From Firmicutes bacterium AM31-12AC (GTDB lineage: Bacteria > Bacillota > Clostridia > Lachnospirales > Lachnospiraceae), in contig QUJA01000052.1 in NCBI GenBank assembly GCA_003480425.1, positions 1 to 15,501 on the forward strand: DNA of 15,501 bases, written 5' to 3'. Made by a program: the position numbers and the translations under genes. Of this stretch, positions 1,242 to 13,267 are shown piece after piece. Each line of letters opens with the position of its first letter. Within the stretch, counting starts at the first letter, position 1. Below the pieces are notes generated by a model, which searched no databases, was not told where the DNA came from, and was given only the letters and a program-made list of their open reading frames with translations.

Positions 1242-3482
1242 TCACTCAACGTTTTTTAATGCCTGTGATAATGGGATTCTTCGGATTTTTTTCGACTGGA
1301 TTATATATACAACCAGATAACAAAGCATTCCCAACACAAACATTGTCGGATAAATCCAAGGAGCTATATAATACGTCAACCATCCTGAATAATCTTTCAT
1401 CATAAGATAATAGATTACTTTTATCGCTTTATCACTGAGTGGTATCGCGATTATCAAAGAAATCGCCACAACAACGCCCGTTGCAAGGCTGTATAAATTT
1501 CCGGCCTCTCTGTCGGAGTACCCAAGAATTTTAAGCATTGAAATTGACGCTTCATTTTTCTCGATAATCGTTTTTGCAAGCAAATAAATTACGATGATAT
1601 AAATCATCAAAGCAAATCCATTCATCATATAAAAGGTCTGTCCCATAGAGTCTTCAAGCTGATCTGCCATAACTGTCAGATCATGTTCCGTAATCGTAGA
1701 TGCAATCATTGTATCCTCGATATCTTCTATTTTTTTATCTGTAAAATATCCGCTAAAATAATCCGGGTCTTTGTCAAATATATCGCAAAATGTGGATTTT
1801 GATAAAAATATACACATCGTAGCCGGATAATGATAACTTCCGCTCACCTTAAATGTATATTTATTATCTCCGTATTCTTCATGGAGATTAATCTCATCTC
1901 CGATCTGGATACCATATTTCTCCATATATCCGTCTGACAGTACGACTTCTCCATCTTTCAGATCCAAATTCTTCAAATATTTTGAATGATCCTCGATTCC
2001 ATAAACCGTAATCTCTTCGTCACTAGTGTTTTTCAGCTCTGATACTGCATATTTTTCAGCACCTGATGTCTCCGTTTCCAAAGGCATTTTCAAAATATAC
2101 TGATAATTCGCAATTTTTGAATCGAGTACTTCTGCTTTAAAATGAGTCAACAATGGTGATAACATCATTCCAAACAACATCAGAACACTTGCAAAGAAAA
2201 TACCCGCAAACAACGTCAGATAAGCCGCTTTATTTTGCAGAATCACACGGATGCGGAATCTGGTAATAAATTTCCAGTTTGGAAGGCCGATTGCTCTTCT
2301 TTTCTTGTTTCTCTTAAGCTCATGTCTTAAAAATTGTAATGGCGGCAAAGTCATCATGGACATGATTACAAGGAAATTTACAACCAGAAGTAACACAAAT
2401 GGTATGACTGTCGTTTCTATAAAAGCATCTGCATTCCAGATTGTCGTGTATGTCGGAAGCGAATAACTATGGTAATACATCCCTGCCACAACATATTTCA
2501 TCCATGTATACCCGAGTACATTTCCTACAACAGATGCGACCAGCATAACAACCACCGGCAGCGTCATATAATGCCGCACCAATTCGCCTCTCGTATAACC
2601 GGACGCCAATAAGGTTCCGACTACGGAAGATTCCTGCTCAATCGTACTTCTCGCCGTAATCGCAAATATAAATGCCAGAATAACGATTACGATATAAAGC
2701 AGCCACTGTACCATTACCTGGTCTCCGCCCATATCGTCTCCTGTGAAGGTGATTGCCTGATTGTCCTGACGGGCAACAAAATCTGTCATGACAGCTTTTT
2801 TCTTTATGATATCCTTGATATCATTTGCCTTATCCTCCTGCTCTTTGTCAGATAAAGCTACGTCATCATTTACCCACGCATAGCATTTCTTAAGACCGGC
2901 ATCTCCAAGTTTATCAAACGCATGTTTCGTTACAAGTGCAACTGTAAATTTATTCGCATCAAACATCATATCGGTATTATTTTTAAATAATGCACTGTAA
3001 TCTGATAATGCGACCACACCTGTCACCTTGTATTTTTTGCCTTCGATTTGCATGGTGTCGCCGATGGCAATCTCATTATTTTCGGCATACAAGCGGTCAA
3101 TCACGATTTCATCATCCGCTTTGGGATACTCTCCATCCATCAAGTCCGCCTTATTTACATCATCACGCATCTTATACAGTCGGATTGTATGTTCTTTTGC
3201 GATTTCTTTATCTTTATAGAACATCGGATAAATCGTAATATCTTCTTTTTCTTCCAATTTCTCTTTTAATTCATCTGAAATGGAATCGGTTAATACAAAA
3301 TGTCCATTCTCGACATTATATTTTTCAAAGCTGTTATCATAGGCTGATTTGCAGCTTCCGTCTGCCACAAGAAAACCGGAACAAAATCCTATGATGATCG
3401 TAAAGAACAAAAAGAGGGCCAGATATTTTCCCCATTCAGACTTCAGCTCACGCAGATATCGTTTTGATAATGGATTTTTCAT
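1242..3482 (-). CDS. ABC transporter permease, FtsX-like family (two FtsX domains)
   Basis: This 746-residue integral membrane protein is probably the permease of a MacB/LolCDE-like exporter or mechanotransmission-type ABC system. Visible layout: a membrane helix at about 19-41, a large extracytoplasmic domain to about 255, and helices near 258-276, 306-325 and 356-378. A second unit follows, with a helix at 418-440, another external domain, and helices near 620-640, 665-685 and 708-730. The conserved FtsX coupling region appears as ESSVVGTLLASGYTRGEL and again as NEASISMLKILGYSDREA. A GGGGG-type ribosome site precedes the ATG, and the partner ATPase gene ends only 12 bases upstream, so the two are co-transcribed. 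The substrate is unknown. No adjacent sensor kinase or response regulator points to bacitracin-type resistance. Confidence 0.9.
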   Translation of the reverse strand: MKNPLSKRYLRELKSEWGKYLALFLFFTIIIGFCSGFLVADGSCKSAYDNSFEKYNVENGHFVLTDSISDELKEKLEEKEDITIYPMFYKDKEIAKEHTIRLYKMRDDVNKADLMDGEYPKADDEIVIDRLYAENNEIAIGDTMQIEGKKYKVTGVVALSDYSALFKNNTDMMFDANKFTVALVTKHAFDKLGDAGLKKCYAWVNDDVALSDKEQEDKANDIKDIIKKKAVMTDFVARQDNQAITFTGDDMGGDQVMVQWLLYIVIVILAFIFAITARSTIEQESSVVGTLLASGYTRGELVRHYMTLPVVVMLVASVVGNVLGYTWMKYVVAGMYYHSYSLPTYTTIWNADAFIETTVIPFVLLLVVNFLVIMSMMTLPPLQFLRHELKRNKKRRAIGLPNWKFITRFRIRVILQNKAAYLTLFAGIFFASVLMLFGMMLSPLLTHFKAEVLDSKIANYQYILKMPLETETSGAEKYAVSELKNTSDEEITVYGIEDHSKYLKNLDLKDGEVVLSDGYMEKYGIQIGDEINLHEEYGDNKYTFKVSGSYHYPATMCIFLSKSTFCDIFDKDPDYFSGYFTDKKIEDIEDTMIASTITEHDLTVMADQLEDSMGQTFYMMNGFALMIYIIVIYLLAKTIIEKNEASISMLKILGYSDREAGNLYSLATGVVVAISLIIAIPLSDKAIKVIYYLMMKDYSGWLTYYIAPWIYPTMFVLGMLCYLVVYIIQSKKIRRIPLSQALKNVE

Positions 3483-3494
3483 ACGAGCACCCCC

Positions 3495-4193
3495 TTACCA
3501 TTCCAACTCTGCCACAGCTTGTTTCTGTCCATTGTAAATGCATTTGCGAATCTGTCCGTCACGCAATTTGATGACCTGATCTGCCATTCCCTGAATCGCA
3601 TCATTGTGTGTCACAAGAATAACCGTATTTCCGAATTTTTGATTCACATCTTCAATCAATTGTAAAATTTCTTTAGAGGTCTGATAATCCAATGCTCCTG
3701 TTGGCTCATCGCAGAGCAAAATATCCGGATTCTTAATCAAAGCCCGTCCAATTGCGGTTCTCTGCTGCTGTCCTCCTGAAAGCTGATTTGGAATTTTGTC
3801 TTTATGTTCCCATAGCCCCAGTGTTTTCAGCAAACCATCTAGCTCCAGCGGATTTTTGGATAAATATGCGCCAACCTCAATATTTTCCTTTACGGTCAGA
3901 TTCGGAATCAGATTGTACGCCTGAAATACATAGCCCAAATGTTTTCGACGATACTGGGCCAACTGCTTTTCATTCATACTCTCCATCTGTTCATCGCCGA
4001 TTCGAATCGAGCCGCTATCGATATTTTCAATGCCACCGATGATATTTAACAGGGTGGATTTTCCTGACCCTGACGGGCCAAGTAAAACACAGATATCCCC
4101 TTTCTTAATCCCACACGAAATACCTTTGAGTACTTCCGTTTTGTTTTCTCCGCTTCCAAATGATTTTTTTACTTGATTCAGTTCCAGATACAT
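3495..4193 (-). CDS. ABC transporter ATP-binding protein (MacB/LolD-like)
   Basis: This 232-residue cytoplasmic ATPase energises the FtsX-type permease encoded just downstream. All ABC motifs are intact: Walker A GPSGSGKST (39-47), Q-loop Gln91, signature LSGGQ (138-142), Walker B with DEPTGALD (162-169) and switch His196. Length and the PTGALD form match the MacB/LolD/SalX subgroup. The ribosome site AGAGAGGA lies six bases before the ATG. The gap to the upstream P-type ATPase gene is 17 bases and to the downstream permease 12 bases, indicating one transcript. Such ATPases pair with many exporters, so the substrate cannot be read from this gene. Confidence 0.93.
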   Translation of the reverse strand: MYLELNQVKKSFGSGENKTEVLKGISCGIKKGDICVLLGPSGSGKSTLLNIIGGIENIDSGSIRIGDEQMESMNEKQLAQYRRKHLGYVFQAYNLIPNLTVKENIEVGAYLSKNPLELDGLLKTLGLWEHKDKIPNQLSGGQQQRTAIGRALIKNPDILLCDEPTGALDYQTSKEILQLIEDVNQKFGNTVILVTHNDAIQGMADQVIKLRDGQIRKCIYNGQKQAVAELEW

Positions 4194-4210: not shown

Positions 4211-6286
4211 CTATTTATCCAGCAAATCTTTCATACTTTGCAAACTGATCAATAAGGTCGATGTATTGTGCAATAATGCAGACGTTGTAGGTGGGAAGAT
4301 TCCCATAACTCCACCCGCTATCAGGCAAGCATTGATTCCGACAATGGAACGGTAATTATTATGGATTCGCTCCATCAGTCTGTCGCTTAGATTTTTCAGA
4401 ACAACAATTTCTTCCAGATTATCTGCGCCAATCGTAACATCTGCAATTTCTCTCGCGATCTCTGCTCCGTCACTGATTGCAATTCCAATATCGGAAGCTG
4501 ATAGTGCCGGTGAATCATTGATTCCGTCACCGATCATAATGACTTTTCTTCCGTCAGCCTTTTCTTTCTCTATAAAACTTGCCTTATCCTCCGGCAACAC
4601 CTCTGAGAAATACTCATCCACACCTACTTTTGAAGCAATCACTTTCGCTGTGCGGTCACTGTCACCTGTCATCATAACGACCTTGATTCCCTTACTCTTA
4701 AGTTCGGCAATCACTCTTTGTGCCTCTTCACGAAGTGGGTCTTCGACACAGACAACTGCGGCCAGTTTACGGTTAATTGCCATATATAAGTGTGAGCATT
4801 CTCCTGGGAGCTGTTCATAGAGCTTCTCTTTTCCTTCCGGAATGGTACATTTTTCATCTTCAAACACAAAATGTGAGCTTCCGATGATAACGGATTTCCC
4901 TTCAATTGTCGACGAAATACCATGAGCAACAACATATTCTACTTTGGAATGTAGCTCTTCATGTACCAGATTTTTCTCTTTTGCCGCTGTTACAACTGCT
5001 TTCGCCATGGAATGTGGGAAATGTTCCTCCAGACATGCTGCAATTCTTAGAAGTTCATCACTGCCCATATCATTAAATGATACGACATCTACTACTGTAG
5101 GCTGTGCTTTTGTCAATGTTCCTGTTTTATCAAATACAATCGTATCTGCTTCTGACATTGCCTCAAGATATTTTCCACCTTTTACAGTAATATTGTAGGT
5201 ACTTGCTTCTTTAATCGCTGACAATACGGAAATCGGCATTGCAAGTTTCAATGCGCACGAAAAATCTACCATCAATACAGATAATGCCTTTGTTACATTT
5301 TTCGTACACAAATACGTAATTCCTGTTCCAAGAAGTGTATATGGGACAAGCTTGTCTGCAAGATGCTCTGCTTTTCCTTCCAGAGAAGATTTCAGCTTTT
5401 CTGACTCTTCAATCATGGAAACAATCTGGTCAAATTTGCTGTTTCCATTGCTTTGTTTTACTCGGATCGTAAGTTCTCCTTCTTCCAATACGGTTCCTGC
5501 AAAGACACTTGCATCCGTCGTCTTCGCAACCGGAACGGATTCTCCTGTCATGGAAGCCTGATTTACCATTCCTTCTCCGGAAACGATTGTTCCATCAAAA
5601 GGAATTACATTTCCCATATGTACTCTTACCAAATCTCCTGCTTTGATATCCGAAGTTGAAACAAGCACTTCCTGGTCTTCAGTTACAAGCCATACTTTAC
5701 TGATATGTAAAGACATGCTGCGTGCAAGATCGTCGACTGATTTTTTATGTGTCCACTCTTCCAGTATTTCACCAATTCCAAGCAAGAACATAATGGAACC
5801 TGCAGTGCCGAAATCTTGTCTGAAAATAGAAACTCCGATAGATGTTGCATCTAACACCGGAACTTCAATTTTACCTTTTGCAAGTGTACAGATTCCATGC
5901 CATATGTATTTCACTGATTTTGCAGTTGTAAGCACTGCACGAACCGGAAGCGGCAGAAATAGTTTATTTCCATAATGAAGCACTACCGAAGTAACCAGTT
6001 TCTCCCAGTACTCGCTGTTCAATTCTCGTCCTGAATTTTTCAGATAGGTTTCCGGAAGTGTCACCTCTCCATAGTGAAATGCTTTCAGGCTTTCAATTAC
6101 GCTTTCTCTGTCTCCTTTATAGCAAATTGTTACACATTGCGTACGTTCCTGCACTTTCACAGATGTAATCTGCATATTTTGTTCCATATAATATTGTATT
6201 TCGTCTGCCTGCTCAAAGGTCATTCGACTCTGAACAAACTGCACACGTAATCTTCCTTGTATATCATGTTTAATTTTAAACTTCAT
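4211..6286 (-). CDS. P1B-type metal-transporting ATPase with SCALK motif; candidate ferrosome FezB-like
   Basis: This 691-residue membrane pump moves a metal ion using ATP. Residues 1-75 look like a degenerate heavy-metal-associated domain without the CxxC metal site. The actuator loop has TGES (247-250), the phosphorylation site is DKTGTLT with Asp386, the nucleotide domain has EEHFPHSMAKA (420-430) and MTGD (539-542), and the hinge is GDGIND (586-591). The membrane motif that is CPC in copper and zinc pumps is here SCALK (343-347), so metal choice should differ. The frame opens with GTG at 6310, but the ATG at 6286 has AGAAGG six bases upstream and is preferred. It follows a small GxxxG membrane protein gene, like the fezA-fezB pair of ferrosome loci, where FezB is a P1B-6 ATPase. 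P-type identity is certain; the Fez role is inference. Confidence 0.93.
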   Translation of the reverse strand: MKFKIKHDIQGRLRVQFVQSRMTFEQADEIQYYMEQNMQITSVKVQERTQCVTICYKGDRESVIESLKAFHYGEVTLPETYLKNSGRELNSEYWEKLVTSVVLHYGNKLFLPLPVRAVLTTAKSVKYIWHGICTLAKGKIEVPVLDATSIGVSIFRQDFGTAGSIMFLLGIGEILEEWTHKKSVDDLARSMSLHISKVWLVTEDQEVLVSTSDIKAGDLVRVHMGNVIPFDGTIVSGEGMVNQASMTGESVPVAKTTDASVFAGTVLEEGELTIRVKQSNGNSKFDQIVSMIEESEKLKSSLEGKAEHLADKLVPYTLLGTGITYLCTKNVTKALSVLMVDFSCALKLAMPISVLSAIKEASTYNITVKGGKYLEAMSEADTIVFDKTGTLTKAQPTVVDVVSFNDMGSDELLRIAACLEEHFPHSMAKAVVTAAKEKNLVHEELHSKVEYVVAHGISSTIEGKSVIIGSSHFVFEDEKCTIPEGKEKLYEQLPGECSHLYMAINRKLAAVVCVEDPLREEAQRVIAELKSKGIKVVMMTGDSDRTAKVIASKVGVDEYFSEVLPEDKASFIEKEKADGRKVIMIGDGINDSPALSASDIGIAISDGAEIAREIADVTIGADNLEEIVVLKNLSDRLMERIHNNYRSIVGINACLIAGGVMGIFPPTTSALLHNTSTLLISLQSMKDLLDK

Positions 6287-6292
6287 GTAAAT

Positions 6293-6298
6293 CCTTCT
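6293..6298 (-). promoter_or_regulatory. Ribosome binding site of the P1B-ATPase, deciding the start
   Basis: AGAAGG on the minus strand lies six bases before the ATG at 6286. The in-frame GTG at 6310 falls inside the hairpin at 6306-6333 and has no ribosome site of its own. Confidence 0.6.
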
Positions 6299-6305
6299 TT
6301 CCGAA

Positions 6306-6333
6306 AACACCTGCAGATAAAACTGCAGGTGTT
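6306..6333 (-). other. 11-bp hairpin between the small membrane gene and the P1B-ATPase
   Basis: Positions 6306-6316 pair with 6323-6333 around an ATAAAA loop, including the palindromic ACACCTGCAG / CTGCAGGTGT arms. Read in the direction of transcription it is followed by only four T, then the ATPase ribosome site. It could be a partial terminator or an mRNA-stability hairpin that sets the ratio of the two proteins. A full stop is unlikely, since no other promoter is evident for the ATPase. Confidence 0.45.
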
Positions 6334-6365
6334 CTGGTTTTTGTTTGCTTTATAGCTTATATTTA

Positions 6366-6707
6366 TTATGCTTCTTCGGTTTCTGTTTCTTTAAAGCTTT
6401 CTTCAACATCTGTTTCGTTGGCATCTGCCTCTTCTACATCTGTCACAACTTCTTCTGCTGCTGCACGTTCTTCATTGATCTGCTGTGCTTCTGCATAAAT
6501 GTCTTCTGCATTTTCCTGAATTGTTGTGGCTGTTTTCATCACACAAGACTTTGCACGAAGAATCGCTGCTGTACAGTTTGTGTAAAGCTTTTTCGCATCC
6601 TTACTTGCAAGTACCTTGATACCTGCTGTTCCGAATAACACACCTGCTGCAAAAATTCCTGTTGATTTACCATTTACTTTCTTTAAACATTTCAAATAAT
6701 TTGACAT
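6366..6707 (-). CDS. Small membrane protein with acidic tail (DUF6110-like); candidate FezA-like partner
   Basis: This 113-residue protein has a short basic N-terminus and one hydrophobic segment at about 17-33 containing GVLFG (a GxxxG packing motif, Gly22 and Gly26). The motif GIKVLASKDAKKLYT follows, then an amphipathic helix to about 75. The C-terminal third is very rich in Glu, Asp, Thr and Val. I recall such proteins as DUF6110, from memory of the family pattern rather than a search. It is the first gene after the promoter at 6740-6769, with an AGGAGG site nine bases before the ATG, and precedes the P1B-ATPase by about 80 bases. GxxxG helices help membranes oligomerise, and the acidic tail could bind cations. 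A role in a metal-storing membrane compartment is my inference. Confidence 0.8.
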   Translation of the reverse strand: MSNYLKCLKKVNGKSTGIFAAGVLFGTAGIKVLASKDAKKLYTNCTAAILRAKSCVMKTATTIQENAEDIYAEAQQINEERAAAEEVVTDVEEADANETDVEESFKETETEEA

Positions 6708-6739
6708 GATAAAATTCCTCCTCTGTTTTTTATGGACAA

Positions 6740-6769
6740 ATTATATATCCATTATTTTTCTTGTTTCAA
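6740..6769 (-). promoter_or_regulatory. Promoter of the small membrane protein / P1B-ATPase / ABC operon
   Basis: On the minus strand TTGAAA (6764-6769) and TATAAT (6740-6745) are separated by 18 bases, close to the sigma-70/SigA consensus. The box lies about 33 bases before the ATG at 6707. It separates this operon from the flavodoxin operon upstream. Confidence 0.65.
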
Positions 6770-6779
6770 GCCAATTCTA

Positions 6780-6807
6780 TCTTATTGAGAAATTTTATCC
6801 AATAAGA
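6780..6807. promoter_or_regulatory. 8-bp inverted repeat upstream of the -35 box, possible operator
   Basis: TCTTATTG (6780-6787) and CAATAAGA (6800-6807) are exact inverted arms separated by 12 AT-rich bases. The repeat lies 11 bases upstream of the -35 hexamer and about 50 bases beyond the flavodoxin stop. The lack of a T run argues against a terminator. A regulator site is possible, but its half-site differs from the GTTAG motif at 8280-8317. Confidence 0.3.
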
Positions 6808-6860
6808 CGCTTGCAAATGAGATTCGCTATCATTTATAATAGTAAATTCATTTTTTGCGC

Positions 6861-7283
6861 TTATGCAAGTGCCGCTCCCAACTCCTTGCAAGCTGTAATT
6901 GCATCCTCATCAGGTGCATCATTGCATACAACACTGTCGCAGGCAAGTTCTATTCCTGCTTCTTTACAATCATCTTCCCAGTTTCTCATCCATTCTCCAT
7001 CGCCCCATCCATAAGAACCGAACAATGCAACCTTCTTTCCTGCCAGTGCCAATTTGCACTCGTCAAACAGTGGCTGGAATTCATCTTCCTCCAAAACTTC
7101 TGCACCCATTGCCGGGCATCCAAAGGCAATTGCATCGTAACCCTCTACATCTCCTGCCTGAAATGCATCTGCTGAATAGATAGAAGCATCTGCTCCATTT
7201 TCTTTCATTCCTTCCAGAACTGCATTTGCCATTTCCTCTGTATTTCCTGTTCCACTCCAAAATACGACTGCTGTTTTACTCAT
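6861..7283 (-). CDS. Flavodoxin (short chain)
   Basis: This 140-residue cytoplasmic FMN electron carrier can replace ferredoxin when iron is scarce. The FMN-phosphate loop is SGTGNTE (10-16), preceded by the first beta strand TAVVFW. FGSYGWGDGEWM (88-99) supplies the aromatic loop next to the flavin, and FGCPAMGAEVLE is the other ring-contact region. Length matches short-chain clostridial flavodoxins. A GGAGG site lies upstream of the ATG. It is the last gene after DUF2325 and DUF3793, all on one strand with short gaps, so it is probably under the operator-covered promoter at 8305-8333. Identity is secure; iron control is inferred from context and operator. Confidence 0.95.
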   Translation of the reverse strand: MSKTAVVFWSGTGNTEEMANAVLEGMKENGADASIYSADAFQAGDVEGYDAIAFGCPAMGAEVLEEDEFQPLFDECKLALAGKKVALFGSYGWGDGEWMRNWEDDCKEAGIELACDSVVCNDAPDEDAITACKELGAALA

Positions 7284-7322: not shown

Positions 7323-7904
7323 TTAAGCCACTGTGAGCTTCTGTATGCTTCTTCCATTTCTCCAAAGCCGGTTATATACATCTGTACATTTTTTATATTT
7401 GCAAAATGTTCTTTCTGCTTCTTCTTTATTGCAATAAACCTTCCAGCATCCAATGCAATGACAATTCTTTCCTTTATTAACAATAAAGCCGATCACATCA
7501 TCCAATGGATATCCCAGGAATAATCCGATTTCATGTGGGAATGTTCCGTTTTCTTCTAAACGTTCAATCAAATGAGAAATAGCATGATGCGGATCCGTAT
7601 CCTGATATCCATATTTTCGAAGCAAGTTCATCACTCCTGGTTTTTCCAGATCTTGTTGCAACTTTTTCATGCGGCAGACATAAATCAACGCCCTGTTTTC
7701 TTGTTTTTGTAATATAAACAGACTTAATCCTTTTTCTTTCATCTCTTTTTCCCAATACATTATACTCATTTCAAGTGATTGTATACATGTATATTTGCAT
7801 GTAAATAAATTTGCGGTTTTAAGAGATGCCAGTGTAGGGGCACAATGCATGATCAAACACTGCTCCAGCCCTTCTGCAGTGTTTCCCATATTACGTTTCT
7901 TCAT
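7323..7904 (-). CDS. DUF3793 family protein, Cys-rich
   Basis: This 193-residue protein of unknown biochemical role resembles DUF3793, which I know mainly from Clostridia iron-uptake and flavodoxin neighbourhoods. The N-terminus has HCAPTLASLKTANLF (20-34), the middle holds ERLEENGTFPHEIGLFLGYP (114-133), and the C-terminus clusters cysteines at 148, 150, 153, 158, 168 and 173. Cys-rich spacing of this kind could bind iron, zinc or an Fe-S cluster, but no known motif fits exactly. The likely ribosome site is GAAAGGA about eight bases before the ATG. It lies between DUF2325 (25-base gap) and flavodoxin (39-base gap). Another open frame at 7280-7483 overlaps its 3' end but lacks family resemblance. 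Confidence 0.85.
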   Translation of the reverse strand: MKKRNMGNTAEGLEQCLIMHCAPTLASLKTANLFTCKYTCIQSLEMSIMYWEKEMKEKGLSLFILQKQENRALIYVCRMKKLQQDLEKPGVMNLLRKYGYQDTDPHHAISHLIERLEENGTFPHEIGLFLGYPLDDVIGFIVNKGKNCHCIGCWKVYCNKEEAERTFCKYKKCTDVYNRLWRNGRSIQKLTVA

Positions 7905-7929: not shown

Positions 7930-8211
7930 TTATGCACAGCAAGATTTCAAAATTTCTGTCAATGCATTCTGACTGCTTGTGTGAGAACGCACAACATCTG
8001 TTTTTGAACTGTCAATTTCATCCAAAGCTGTTTTTACCATCTTATGTGACACTGTGTTTGTAAATAATACGAGAAGATCTGGACATCCAATCTGTTTATC
8101 AAAATCCGCCTTCATGTGTGTAAATACTTTTACCTTGCATTTGTAGGATTTACATATTTTCTTATACTGGGCTACCATTCTGTCGTGCCCTCCGACAATT
8201 ACTATGCTCAT
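7930..8211 (-). CDS. DUF2325 family protein
   Basis: This small 93-residue protein begins with MSIVIVGGHDRMV, a Rossmann-like strand and glycine turn typical of DUF2325. It continues with PDLLVLFTNTVSHKMV and VVRSHTSSQNAL, the other conserved blocks I recognise. It ends in Cys-Cys. An AGGAGG site stands directly before the ATG. It is the first gene of the DUF2325, DUF3793, flavodoxin operon and follows the promoter at 8305-8333 with a leader of about 85 bases. Its molecular role is not known. The single-domain length and histidine near the N-terminus suggest a small sensor or chaperone-like partner, which is speculation. Confidence 0.85.
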   Translation of the reverse strand: MSIVIVGGHDRMVAQYKKICKSYKCKVKVFTHMKADFDKQIGCPDLLVLFTNTVSHKMVKTALDEIDSSKTDVVRSHTSSQNALTEILKSCCA

Positions 8212-8279: not shown

Positions 8280-8317
8280 GTTAGCTCTTTCTAACTACAC
8301 GGTTAGTATATTCTAAC
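8280..8317. promoter_or_regulatory. Double palindromic operator (GTTAG-N6-CTAAC twice, 22-bp pitch)
   Basis: Exact GTTAG-N6-CTAAC palindromes occur at 8280-8295 and 8302-8317. The bases between them also give CTAAC-N6-GTTAG, so four half-sites repeat every 11 bases on one face of the helix. The second palindrome covers the -10 box (8305-8310) and part of the spacer of the minus promoter; the first lies around the transcript start. This is the geometry of a repressor site that binds two dimers. The TTAG/CTAA half-site is reminiscent of DtxR/IdeR-type iron regulators, but the regulator is not encoded in the window. Confidence 0.7.
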
Positions 8318-8333
8318 TTTCTCTCCTTGTCAA
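8305..8333 (-). promoter_or_regulatory. Promoter of the DUF2325-DUF3793-flavodoxin operon
   Basis: On the minus strand a perfect TTGACA (8328-8333) and TATACT (8305-8310) are separated by exactly 17 bases. This is one of the best SigA-type promoters in the window. A strong promoter under a phased palindromic operator fits a gene set that is normally shut off by a metal-loaded repressor and strongly induced on starvation. Confidence 0.8.
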
Positions 8334-8450
8334 TTCTATTCAATGATAACTTTTCTCATTTACTTTCTTCTATATGTGAGATTTTTCATATACTATACAA
8401 CCTTACAACATTCTCCTCGAAAATTAATGACCATTCGTCATTTTTGCTTA

Positions 8451-8535: not shown

Positions 8536-11076
8536 ATGAAGACAACACTTCAAATATTCAAACGTGACTGCATGCGTTTGCTTCGCAATCCAGTTGCTAT
8601 GCTTGTTGTGATCGGCGTCTGTATTCTGCCATCGCTTTATGCCTGGTTCAACATTGCCGCTAACATGGATCCATACAGCAATACAAAAGGGATTAAAGTA
8701 GCAATTGCCAGCAATGATGCCGGAGCTTGCTCCGATAAGATTTCCCTCAATGCAGGTTCTTCGCTTATTGAACAATTAGAAAAAAATAATTCTCTTGGAT
8801 GGACTTTCGTAGATGAAGATGCTGCTATTGAAGGTGTAAGGTCCGGAAAATATTACGCTGCTATTGTGATTCCTGAAGATTTCAGCGAATCTCTTCTAAG
8901 TATCATCAGTGGCGAACCTCAGAACCCGGTTTTAGATTATTATGTAAATGAGAAGAAAAATGCGATTGCTCCAAAGATCACAGACACCGGAGCCGGTACG
9001 ATTCAGCAGGAAATCAACGATACTTTTTCCAATGTTGCCGCTGAAACAATTTCGAATTTAATTATTAAATCTGTCTCTAAAGTTTCCGGTAATATGAGTG
9101 ATATGAATACTGAGACACTGCGCTCTATTTCTGATATTCAAAAGAATCTGGATGACTATCAGACTACTTTGAAGGATTTTCAGGAAACTGTAAAGAGCAG
9201 CTCTTCGATTATCGCAGACACGCAAGCCTCTTTGGATTCTGTCAATACAGCCGCTTTATCCGGTGCGAAAACACTTTCCAGTGCGTCTGATGTATTAAAT
9301 ACCAGCCGCAGTGCAATTGGTACATTTTCTTCGACATTCTCTCAGAGCTTGTCTGATGGAGACCAATTGTTAAGCAATATTTACGGTTCTGCTTCTGACA
9401 AGCTTGGAACAATTGAAAATGATATGCAGACGATTAACGGGAATATAAGTAACAGTCTTGCTTCTGCCCAGAATCTGGTTGAATTAAATAAGGAAATAAT
9501 TAACGATTTACAAGTGATAACCGCTCATATTTCAAATGAAGAGCTTGTCGCAGCTTTAAATAGTAAGATTGCTGATTTGGAAAGTCAAAATATTAAATTG
9601 CAGGAACTTGTCAACTCTTTAAAAGCCGGAAATGACAATATAGAAACTGCTTTAAATGGTGCTTCTACTGCACGTACACAATTAAACACTCTTGTATCGC
9701 AGAGTAAACAGTCCTTGAGGGATTACCAGAATTCATTGAATCAGACATTGCTGCCGACTTTAAATCAGTCGCTAGATACATTTTCTACACTAAGTGGAAA
9801 TCTTTCTGCCACAATGAATGGGATTTATCCTTCTATTACTCAGTTGAAATCCATCCTTGGACAACTCGACAGCAGCTTAAAAGACAGTGCTTCTGTTCTT
9901 GACTCGACCGGCACTGCACTTCAGACAGTAAATGATAAGCTTTCCAGCCTCACAACGGATTTAAAAGCTTTGCAAAGCTCCAGTGCATATCAGCAGTTTC
10001 TTTCTCTAAAAGGAATTGATGCAGATGGTATTTCAACTTTTATGTCATCACCGGTAACTGTTGATACAGAAGTACTCTACGATGTAAAGAATTATGGTTC
10101 TGCCATGACACCATTTTACACAAATCTGGCTCTTTGGGTAGGTGGACTGATTCTGGTTTCTATTTTCAAACAAGAGGTAGATTTTGATGAAAAAATTCCA
10201 AATGCAACTGCAACTCAGTGTTATTTTGGCCGTTTTCTTCTATTTCTGAGCATCGGACTTATTCAGAGTGTCATCGTATGTGCCGGTGATATCTGGCTTA
10301 TTAAAGCCCAATGCAATGAACCTGCCGCTTTTATTTTTGCCGGAATGGTATGCTCCGTTGTTTATGTCAGTCTGATTTATGCAATGGCACTTGCATTTAA
10401 ACACATTGGTAAGGCATTGTGCGTGCTTCTGGTTATTTTGCAGATTCCAGGATCATCTGGTACTTATCCAATTGAGATGATGCCAGCTTTCTTCCAGAAT
10501 CTTCATCCACTCCTTCCATTTTCGTATGGAATCAGTGCAATGCGTGAAGCTATTGCTGGAATGTATGCTCACAACTATCGTAGAAATTTATTGATCATGC
10601 TTGTATTCCTTGGAATCGCATTTCTCATCGGTCTTGGACTTCGTCCTCTGCTGATGAACCTAAATTACCTGTTTGACCGCAGACTTGCTGTTACAGATTT
10701 GATGTTGTGTGAGACTTCCAGTACAGAACGAAACACTCAGCAAGTATCTATGATTTATAAAGCAATGCTCTACAATGAAGTTACACGCAAGGAATTGACC
10801 GATAAGGCGGAAAAATTTGAACGCACTTATTCGAGACGAATCCGTCGTGGATTCAATTGCATTTTTATACTTGCTTTTGTTTTTCTGATTCTGATGTTCA
10901 GTTTGGAATCTAAGCTTGTATTTTTAATTTTGTGGATTGTTTCCGTAGTTGTATTGGCATTTTACTTGATTATTATGGAATACATCCACGACAAAACACA
11001 GAAGCAATTAGAACTTGCCAAGTTATCTGAAGATGAATTATTAAAACTTTTGAAGAAAGGAAATGAACGATCATGA
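8536..11076 (+). CDS. YhgE/Pip family membrane protein (ABC-2-like), long form
   Basis: This 846-residue protein has the YhgE/Pip architecture. An N-terminal helix (about 19-40) ends in the hallmark LPSLYAWFNIAANMDPYSNT. An extracytoplasmic domain carries SGKYYAAIVIPEDFS. A long Ser/Thr/Gln-rich helical stalk (about 180-490) follows, then five C-terminal helices (about 525-705) including GKALCVLLVILQIPGSSGTYPIE. The family includes phage-receptor proteins and is related to EsaA/YueB of type VII secretion; most members have no known substrate. Unlike its downstream paralogue it has an extra C-terminal part (about 710-846) with two more helices at 772-815 and a charged tail. Its stop overlaps the next start in an ATGA, so the two are translationally coupled. 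Confidence 0.9.
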   Translation: MKTTLQIFKRDCMRLLRNPVAMLVVIGVCILPSLYAWFNIAANMDPYSNTKGIKVAIASNDAGACSDKISLNAGSSLIEQLEKNNSLGWTFVDEDAAIEGVRSGKYYAAIVIPEDFSESLLSIISGEPQNPVLDYYVNEKKNAIAPKITDTGAGTIQQEINDTFSNVAAETISNLIIKSVSKVSGNMSDMNTETLRSISDIQKNLDDYQTTLKDFQETVKSSSSIIADTQASLDSVNTAALSGAKTLSSASDVLNTSRSAIGTFSSTFSQSLSDGDQLLSNIYGSASDKLGTIENDMQTINGNISNSLASAQNLVELNKEIINDLQVITAHISNEELVAALNSKIADLESQNIKLQELVNSLKAGNDNIETALNGASTARTQLNTLVSQSKQSLRDYQNSLNQTLLPTLNQSLDTFSTLSGNLSATMNGIYPSITQLKSILGQLDSSLKDSASVLDSTGTALQTVNDKLSSLTTDLKALQSSSAYQQFLSLKGIDADGISTFMSSPVTVDTEVLYDVKNYGSAMTPFYTNLALWVGGLILVSIFKQEVDFDEKIPNATATQCYFGRFLLFLSIGLIQSVIVCAGDIWLIKAQCNEPAAFIFAGMVCSVVYVSLIYAMALAFKHIGKALCVLLVILQIPGSSGTYPIEMMPAFFQNLHPLLPFSYGISAMREAIAGMYAHNYRRNLLIMLVFLGIAFLIGLGLRPLLMNLNYLFDRRLAVTDLMLCETSSTERNTQQVSMIYKAMLYNEVTRKELTDKAEKFERTYSRRIRRGFNCIFILAFVFLILMFSLESKLVFLILWIVSVVVLAFYLIIMEYIHDKTQKQLELAKLSEDELLKLLKKGNERS

Positions 11077-13267
11077 GAAATATCCTGGAAATTTTTAAAC
11101 GTGACATCGTGCGGATTAAAACAAATGTAATCGCATTGCTGGTCATCCTCGGAATCACGATTGTTCCGCCACTTTATGCATGGTTTAATATTGCTGCAAG
11201 CTGGGACCCTTATGGTAATACAAGTAGCTTAAAGGTTGCTGTTGCAAGCGTGGACGAGGGATATGAAGGGGATTTGATTCCTCTGAATATCAACATTGGT
11301 GACAATGTTCTTTCTGCTCTTCGTGAAAATACGCAATTAGACTGGGTGTTTACTACAAAGGATAAAGCAACGAAGGGTGTAAAATCCGGAAAGTACTATG
11401 CCGCTGTTATCATTCCTGAAAATTTCAGTAAAGATATGATGAGCATTTTCTCAAGTGATATCGAAAACCCAAAAATCACTTACTATTATAATGCGAAGGA
11501 AAATGCGATTGCACCGAAGATTACCGACAAGGGAGCGAGTGCAATCCAAAACAGGTTAATTCTGTATTTATAGAAACGATATCCGAAACTGCACTTGTAG
11601 CACTTCAGTCTGTATCTGATATGGCAGATGAAAGTGGCGCTGATGTAATTCTTAATAACCTTTTAAATAACCTGAGCGCTATTTCAAATGATTTGACTGC
11701 TGCGTCCGGTACAATCCAGTCCTTTTCAAACCTGACCGGTTCTGCCAAGAATATGCTGGACACAACCTCAGAATTTTTAACTGAGTCAAAAACGCATTCG
11801 GACAGCAGCTTAGCTTCTTTGAAAAATACGAAAAATTCATTTTCCGACGTAAAAACATCTATCAGTGGCGCAACCGATGGAATTAACGCAGCAATTTCCG
11901 GAAGCCAGAGCTTTTACACGCAGCTCTCTTCCATTATTGACGATGCGTTTGCATCACAGTCGGGAAGTGCAGAAACGCTTGCTAATACGTTAAATGGCCT
12001 GGGGGATAAGATTACTCCGATCATCAATGGGTATCAGACACTTATCCAGGCATTCTCTGATTTGAGAAATACGCTTCCTGATGAACTACCGAGTGGTATT
12101 GCAGACGAACTGGATTCTATTATCCGTCGTTTGAACAGTGCTGTTGCAACTCAGCAAAATTTGCAGAACAAGTTATACCAGTCTGCACAGGATATACAGA
12201 ATTCGCCGGCTAACATTGCCGCCGCAAAGGCTGAGCTGGATCAACTGATCCAAACAAGCAGCAACAGCCTTGTTTCCATAAAAAATGACTACGAAAATAA
12301 TGTGGAAAATAGTTTGAATACTCTGTTTGACTCTCTTGGAACGACAAGCTCAACCATTTCTACTTTATTTACACAATTGGATACAACAGCGGACAATATC
12401 CATAAGCTGTCAGGTTCTGCCTCTTCTGATCTTGCAAAGATTCAGACTACATTGTCAGACACCTCTGCACTGATCGACAAGACATCGAAAAGGATGAACA
12501 CAACAATTGACCAGTTGAAGAAAATCAAAAGCAGCGGGGATTACAAACAACTACAGCAGATTTTATCTGGAAACAGTGAAACAATTGCCAGCTTTTTATC
12601 TTCTCCTGTTACATTAAAAACACATGAAATTTATCCTGTGGCAAATTATGGTTCAGCAATGGCACCATTCTATTCTGTCCTCTCCCTCTGGGTAGGAGGC
12701 ATTGTACTGGTTGCCATCTTAAAAGTAACCGTTTCGGCTTCTTCGACCGCCGGACTTAAAAACCTAAAACCATATCAGGTTTATCTTGGCCGCTATCCGA
12801 TTTTCCTGATTGTAGGACTTTTACAAGCCACCTTAATCTGCATGGGGGATTTGTGTTATTTACAGATTCAATGTGAGCATCCGTTTTTATTTTTACTTGC
12901 AGGATGGTTTAGCAGTATCGTATATGTAAATATCATTTACACGCTGACCGTCTCATTCGGAGACATCGGCAAAGCAATCTGCGTGATTTTACTCGTAGTA
13001 CAGGTTGCAGGTTCCGGTGGAACCTTCCCGATTGAGACTGCTCCTCCATTCTTTAGGGCTGTATATCCATTGCTGCCATTTGTACACAGTATGACTGCTA
13101 TGCGCGAATGCGTCGCCGGAATGTATGGTTCAACTTATTGGATACAAATGGGAATTTTAGGAATTTTCCTGATTATTTCTTTGTTCTTTGGATTGGTATT
13201 GAGAAATCCGATCATCAAGTTAAATGATGCTTTTATGGAGAAATTAGAAAGTACACATTTGATTTAG
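11073..13267 (+). pseudogene. Second YhgE/Pip family membrane protein, frameshifted
   Basis: The 5' part (11073-11573) encodes the family N-terminus with LYAWFNIAASWDPYGNT and SGKYYAAVIIPENFS, then runs into a stop. The rest continues in the -1 frame, open well before the ATG at 11621, to the stop at 13267. It includes the stalk and the C-terminal helices with VAGSGGTFPIE. Adding one A to the run at 11548-11551 restores AIQKQVNSVFIETISETA, which aligns with TIQQEINDTFSNVAAETI of the first YhgE protein and gives a 731-residue product. Everything else looks intact, so the lesion is recent, phase-variable or a sequencing error. It overlaps the upstream stop by ATGA. It lacks the extra C-terminal domain of its neighbour. 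Confidence 0.85.
11548..11551 (+). other. Frameshift site in an A tract
   Basis: Four A here put the 5' reading frame out of step with the downstream 548 codons; five A would join them without any stop. There is no X-XXY-YYZ slippery heptamer in the needed phase (the local codons are ATC CAA AAC), so programmed -1 frameshifting is not well supported. Confidence 0.8.

Follow-up and report, generated by a model that had tools for sequence, protein, structure and literature searches.

A fezA-fezB-like gene pair with a Fur-type box upstream in a Lachnospiraceae-like gut bacterium

We found that a 15,501-nt stretch of DNA from Firmicutes bacterium AM31-12AC (contig QUJA01000052.1; the window, hereafter, is this whole stretch) encodes a small membrane protein of the DUF6110 family directly followed by a P1B-type ATPase, and that this pair is probably a fezA-fezB locus of the Clostridioides difficile kind in a Lachnospiraceae-like gut bacterium. 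Sequence comparison allows us to describe it with high confidence as homologous to ferrosome-type loci, and by analogy its products may form ferrosomes. Systems of this kind are already known; new here are its wide reach and its predicted regulation. The two genes are:

6366..6707, minus strand: FezA-like small membrane protein, DUF6110, 113 residues (PF19605, E = 1e-37, well over the family cut-off; 56% identity over 66 residues to the single DUF6110 protein of genome G690, the C. difficile counterpart described below)
4211..6289, minus strand: FezB-like P1B-6-type ATPase, 692 residues, with DFSCALK in transmembrane segment 4 (TM4), LHN in TM6 and HDIQGRLR at the N-terminus (assigned by TIGR01525, motifs and trees)

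The ATPase and its small membrane partner

The ATPase scored 503 bits against TIGR01525 and, as an earlier note on this DNA had described, lacks both CPC and an N-terminal CxxC. When it was compared with the ATPases of 80 relatives, CPC was absent from all 81 proteins, and a CxxC within the first 120 residues occurred in a single relative (L022). Other features were equally uniform: TM4 reads D[FY]SCA[LI]K in 80 of the 81 (DFCCALK in L027), HN lies within the last 60 residues in 80 (the remaining one, L068, is cut short), and 79 start with an H-x4-5-RxR stretch. We placed the start of the window protein at the ATG at 6289; an alternative GTG at 6310 would add 7 residues, and most relatives' ATPases start at the MKF.IKHE stretch.

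In a 40-row tree the window ATPase fell in a 27-row clade (support 98/92) together with pumps of Azospirillum, Arcobacter, Vibrio, Cereibacter and Deinococcus. Copper, zinc/cadmium, antimony and related pumps formed a separate clade (97/98), and two pumps linked to DUF1490 formed a third (100/99). A second tree, from which the KdpB and Gloeothece rows were removed as long branches and to which two rows were added, agreed with the first and placed the G690 ATPase as sister to 12 Lachnospiraceae-type rows that include the window (98/95). Taking together the missing CPC, the HN in TM6 and the position in the trees, we assign the window ATPase to the P1B-6 type.

The small protein matched DUF6110 alone, with no match to DUF1490 over the cut-off. 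A structure model of low confidence (mean pLDDT 61.6) has helices at residues 13-33 and 36-99, of which the first is the single predicted membrane helix and contains G22-xxx-G26, and the last 50 residues carry a net charge of -18; the 113-residue protein with a GxxxG helix and an acidic tail recognised in the earlier note is thus borne out. No His or Cys metal motif was found in the sequence of the tail. Across a 22-row alignment, F19, G22, S35 and A47 are invariant, and G26, G29, K31, L33, A38, K39, K53, D69 and A74 nearly so. Among 92 DUF6110 members, 88 have GxxxG within the first 45 residues, the median net charge of the last 40 residues is -11 (range -17 to -2), and 76 reach -8 or lower. 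Since this charge is widespread, the acidic tail, previously taken as a sign of a variant arrangement, is instead the rule in the family. Profile comparison linked DUF6110 to the small proteins of Azospirillum and Arcobacter with 67% probability and to DUF1490 with 18.5%, both too weak to claim homology.

G690 stood in for the named FezA and FezB, being C. difficile or very close kin as judged from 16S primers. The 22-base core of one primer was matched in two of 391 genomes of a class sample, exactly at ten places in G690 and with two mismatches in the other genome, and three G690 16S copies contain both full primers, 157 bases apart; the primer pair is described as C. difficile-specific in the available part of PMC6429045. 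Another candidate for C. difficile, the L158 genome, was ruled out, its ATPase being 100% identical to that of Clostridium sp. ZBS2. G690 measures 4.26 Mb, and its fez stretch has 28% G+C. Its only DUF6110 match is followed by an ATPase with 57% identity to the window ATPase over 692 residues, compared with 30% for the next-best pump. Two of its other heavy-metal pumps have CPC and CxxC and the fourth pump is KdpB, so that the DUF6110-linked ATPase is the sole CPC-less heavy-metal pump among the matches found, weaker partial matches (26-43%) lying outside this comparison. By this proxy, we regard the window ATPase as a predicted orthologue of C. difficile FezB, with a predicted FezA-type small membrane protein encoded beside it.

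In the portions of the literature available to us, C. difficile fezAB corresponds to CD630_05910-05920 (PMC11651100). In Table 1 of PMC6311696, 05910 appears as an ATPase and 05920 as a hypothetical protein; both genes rise under low iron and when fur is mutated, and the 05920 entry carries a Fur box mark. A review describes both fez genes as needed for ferrosomes and as Fur-repressed (PMC12574912).

Conservation, iron-related neighbours and a candidate mobile element

Conservation was counted in the 80 named relatives' loci, which are centred on the pair and related by descent. In 79 of them the DUF6110 gene precedes that of the ATPase, at a gap of -11 to 298 nt and with one open reading frame (ORF) between the two in 2 of the 79; in the exception, L031, the sequence ends 310 nt upstream. 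The ATPase also adjoins DUF6110 in 10 of 12 new loci of a phylum sample, where L091 is a copy without ATPase and L098 has neither a DUF6110 nor an ATPase match, and it does so in all 26 new loci of the class sample, although the ATPase match in L135 spans 40 residues only. Of 299 genomes sampled from the family of a Blautia relative, 125 hold a DUF6110 match above the family cut-off; the class sample gave 24 of 391 and the phylum sample 9 of 398, against 0 of 14 control genomes in each of the three surveys. A plasmid search with a distant DUF6110 query gave no match. DUF6110-ATPase pairs occur on Deinococcus plasmids (L101:5512-8139 and L115:2491-5121).

The earlier note, which had proposed the ferrosome-like reading, would have given it up had the ATPase grouped with zinc, cadmium or copper pumps and the small protein shown neither a profile link nor a recurrent neighbourhood with FezB. 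What we observed supports that reading on both sides: the ATPase stood apart from such pumps in both trees, with G690 as proxy for the C. difficile side, and the small protein recurs beside this ATPase type in 79 of the 80 relatives, the same pair being present in G690.

Genes related to iron are frequent around the pair. Within five genes, the 80 loci hold Fur-like genes (33), FeoB (24), FeoB-associated/HMA (21), FeoA (16), flavodoxin (15), DUF3793 (15), DUF2325 (7) and DtxR-like genes (7). In 44 loci one or more genes of the Feo, Fur-like or DtxR-like kinds lie that close, and when the flavodoxin set is included the figure is 49 of 80, or 34 of the 48 loci that have 5 kb on either side; all of these are raw counts from loci around the pair. 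One representative was taken from each of the Fur, FeoB, FeoA and DtxR neighbour clusters, and Pfam confirmed all four; in the FeoB-associated representative HMA was over the cut-off and FeoB_associated below it. Outside Firmicutes, a fez-like cluster carried by an Arcobacter plasmid has a DUF2325 gene nearby (L102:2152-2484).

In the window, the genes on the minus strand run in the order DUF2325, DUF3793, flavodoxin, DUF6110, P1B ATPase, ABC ATPase and FtsX-type permease. The neighbours of the pair are:

6861..7283, minus strand: flavodoxin (PF00258, E = 4e-17; within five genes of the pair in 15/80 relatives)
7323..7904, minus strand: DUF3793 protein (PF12672, E = 7e-63; 15/80)
7930..8211, minus strand: DUF2325 protein (PF10087, E = 7e-32; 7/80)
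3495..4193, minus strand: ABC ATPase, starting 17 nt past the end of the P1B ATPase gene (this ABC/FtsX pair lies near the locus in 2/80 relatives)
1242..3482, minus strand: FtsX-type permease, partner of the ABC ATPase (PF02687)

The flavodoxin operon beside the pair, already recognised from the sequence, is confirmed by the Pfam match; as for its metal-type operator, a palindrome lies upstream of it at 8344, and a second lies before the pair, at 6786 (see below). On the other hand, the extra ABC genes had been thought part of a variant arrangement, and they are no conserved partners of the pair, homologues of both being near it in only the two relatives noted above. No further fez gene of a six-gene operon was seen beside the window ATPase, whose neighbours are the genes listed here, and fezX, mentioned in the available part of the review PMC11533511, was not identified in the window.

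A stretch of about 18 kb is common to Lachnospiraceae CE91-St61, Dorea sp. D27 and Negativibacillus massiliensis, to which NCBI assigns no family (L175:14056 to L055:12612, likewise L173/L053 and L174/L054), on contigs of 1.4 to 4.2 Mb. Negativibacillus is 99.85% identical to the other two in the left part and 99.98-99.99% in the right part. The left flank is common (at 96%) to CE91-St61 and D27, which are close kin, and the Negativibacillus flank matches neither. The stretch starts inside a TRAM/uracil-methyltransferase gene and ends 31 bases short of the end of the serine recombinase frame; a version at 97.8% is found in L051. It encodes mobility functions (a MobA/MobL relaxase, an IstB-like protein, RepA_N and a serine recombinase), a TPR/STAND-like protein and an iron set made of DUF3793, flavodoxin, DUF2325, FeoA, a FeoB-type protein, a FeoB-associated/HMA protein, a short Fur-like protein, DUF6110 and the ATPase. 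As judged from these sequences, it is a candidate mobilizable element that may carry the whole iron module between genera. Since its DUF3793-flavodoxin-DUF2325 trio is the same as that of the window, it supports taking the two window operons as one iron-starvation module.

Predicted operator, promoters and Fur-like neighbours

Two palindromes of Fur type, at 8344 and 6786, lie each directly upstream of a near-consensus promoter:

6740..6769, minus strand: predicted promoter of the pair, TTGAAA-18-TATAAT (consensus scan, 11/12)
6786..6800, no strand: Fur-type palindrome TGAGAAATTTTATCC, second of 15,487 window positions, its centre 61 nt before the predicted transcript start of the pair
8305..8333, minus strand: predicted promoter of the DUF2325-DUF3793-flavodoxin operon, TTGACA-17-TATACT (consensus scan, 11/12)
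8344..8358, no strand: Fur-type palindrome TGATAACTTTTCTCA, upstream of the same operon, first of 15,487 window positions

A scan with the usual Fur consensus TGATAATNATTATCA scored weakly, with just 10 to 11 of 14 positions in the window and a best score on the fez side that 28% of shuffles matched. We therefore trained a palindromic matrix, TGAnAAAnTTTnTCA, on 73 upstream regions with the window held out. Because its seed was a Fur-like pattern and its training set consisted of DUF6110 upstream regions, the scores of the relatives' boxes (at least 12 bits in 48 of the 73 regions, compared with 16 of 730 random segments) are not independent. A suspected site at 6818 came only ninth in the matrix ranking and was dropped, as was a palindrome over the -10 box (6733-6753), which was present in one of 77 upstream regions, that of the window. 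A third box-like site of 12.3 bits (6707-6721) overlaps the start of the DUF6110 gene.

The spacing was unused in training. Of the 47 loci from de-duplicated upstream regions that have both a box of at least 12 bits and a predicted promoter, 37 have the box centre 58-61 nt ahead of the predicted start, and the window, at 61, agrees. Over 1.0 Mb scanned, 37 of 43 box/-10 pairs at a spacing of 58-62 precede DUF6110, and of 57 boxes of at least 15 bits 44 lie beside DUF6110, counts that are favoured near the pair because the loci are centred on it. A box upstream of the -35 element, near -60, would suit the spacing expected of an activator that touches RNA polymerase.

The Fur-like proteins encoded beside fez form an unusual group. 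None of the 31 has the H-[HD]-H metal motif, 28 contain C-x-[CSA]-CKE (e.g. L045:4992-5444) and seven have a CxxC after residue 80. They range from 74 to 279 residues; the short ones may be pieces, and in a 94-residue form the match covers just the first half of PF01475. A box of at least 12 bits was present in 21 of 25 loci with a Fur-like gene directly upstream and in 31 of 52 without.

As for the box at 8344-8358, it lies between the divergent DUF2325 gene (minus strand) and a YhgE/Pip-like gene (plus strand, 8536), and so might serve both.

Interpretation and alternative readings

If the pair works as its counterpart does, the DUF6110 protein (FezA) would insert in the membrane by its GxxxG helix, cluster and recruit FezB, which would spend ATP moving ferrous iron across the membrane into vesicles, thus giving rise to ferrosomes. 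The Fur-type box would couple production to iron starvation, leaving the cell ready to lock iron away on its return. What the sequences themselves show is homology, motifs, a conserved pairing, an operator-like sequence and recurring iron-gene neighbours. We infer the clustering, the iron substrate, the vesicle formation and the sign of the regulation by analogy with C. difficile and the mycobacterial PacL proteins.

Several observations weigh against reading the pair as fezA-fezB under Fur control. The window ATPase is also over the cut-off of the cadmium-subfamily model TIGR01512 (353 vs 313.5 bits), as is that of G690. The likeness to C. difficile FezA and FezB rests on G690, which may be a close relative of that species. 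In the window, no Feo or Fur-like gene was found near the pair, the flavodoxin set being present. Moreover, it is not clear-cut that the box is a Fur box of the general kind, as it reached 12 bits in the upstream regions of only 2 of 18 flavodoxin sets of relatives, and only one of the 57 stronger boxes lies beside FeoA. Finally, its position near -60 suits an activator, whereas the C. difficile fez genes are Fur-repressed.

It is also conceivable, although we think it unlikely, that the pair forms a platform for metal efflux in the cell membrane, where the DUF6110 protein would gather the pump as PacL gathers CtpC and iron or another metal would be expelled with no organelle involved. The available part of PMC9374683 ties DUF6110 to PacL/DUF1490 and to a usual pairing with P1B6 ATPases, and that of PMC13043812 proposes effluxosome-like assemblies of DUF6110 proteins. 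The glycine helix and the layout of small protein plus pump are shared, DUF1490 genes preceding pumps in L109 and L129. However, these DUF1490-linked pumps have CPC and lie outside the window's clade in both trees, the profile probability between the two families is low, and the window tail is free of His or Cys metal motifs. The Fur-type box and the flavodoxin neighbours also suggest iron starvation, while a detoxifying exporter would be expected to answer excess metal.

We consider it highly improbable that the ATPase is an ordinary resistance pump for zinc, cadmium, lead or copper, or an iron exporter of the P1B-4 group such as PfeT or FrvA. The generic heavy-metal and cadmium-subfamily models are over their cut-offs, but the motifs and both trees separate the protein from ordinary pumps. 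P1B-4 exporters carry SPC with HEGxT, whereas the window ATPase has FSC in TM4 and LHN in TM6. The chances are just as slim that the pair belongs to a larger transport operon with the downstream ABC and FtsX genes, iron being incidental. The ABC gene, which starts so close behind the ATPase gene on the same strand, is probably cotranscribed with it, but the rarity of this arrangement in the relatives contrasts with the 49 of 80 that have iron genes or the flavodoxin set near the pair.

Compared with C. difficile fezAB, the window shares the gene for a one-helix small protein directly before a CPC-less P1B ATPase, and a predicted Fur-type box upstream. It differs in the box at -61 and in the adjacent DUF2325-DUF3793-flavodoxin operon, the best box in G690 (14.4 bits) lying 380 nt ahead of the small gene. 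For the six-gene fez operons found in Gram-negative bacteria (R. palustris RPA2333-2338), the comparison ran through the six-gene-like Azospirillum plasmid cluster L103, presumably a true fez operon. Like the window, it has a P1B ATPase from this clade with a small, glycine-rich membrane protein encoded next to it; the window has two genes, a DUF6110 rather than a YtxH-like protein, no HMA2 genes and only the weak small-protein link given above. Mycobacterial PacL-CtpC likewise has a one-helix protein with a glycine motif, whose gene directly precedes that of a P1B pump carrying HN in TM6, and differs from the window in having DUF1490 instead of DUF6110, a C-terminal metal-binding motif and CPC in the pump.

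Whether commensals have ferrosomes is raised in the available part of the review PMC12574912. If the fezA-fezB-like pair makes them, organelle iron storage would be common in the gut, and commensals would share the tool of C. difficile against iron withholding. DUF6110 would also join the ferrosome and the PacL efflux literatures, the two papers from the efflux field cited here for DUF6110 (PMC9374683 and PMC13043812) using neither "ferrosome" nor "FezA" in their main texts.

A wider proposal, which we put forward only tentatively and consider rather doubtful as a whole, would combine four elements: ferrosomes would be widespread in commensal Lachnospiraceae; a dedicated Fur-family protein, with CxCC but without the usual metal motif, would switch the fez promoter from a nearly constant site at -60; the whole iron module (DUF3793, flavodoxin, DUF2325, FeoAB, the Fur-like regulator and fezAB) would have spread between genera on the 18-kb mobilizable element; and a single scaffold-plus-pump design, with DUF6110 as the link, would underlie ferrosomes and PacL efflux platforms alike.

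Close named matches of the two proteins include, for the ATPase, one from "Ruminococcus sp." (98%) and, for the DUF6110 protein, one from "Clostridia" (96%); together with the trees, such matches suggest a place for the window in the Lachnospiraceae. Elsewhere in the window, a second YhgE/Pip-like gene (11073-13267, plus strand) is broken into ORFs at 11073-11573 and 11621-13267, which points to a damaged gene or a sequence error.

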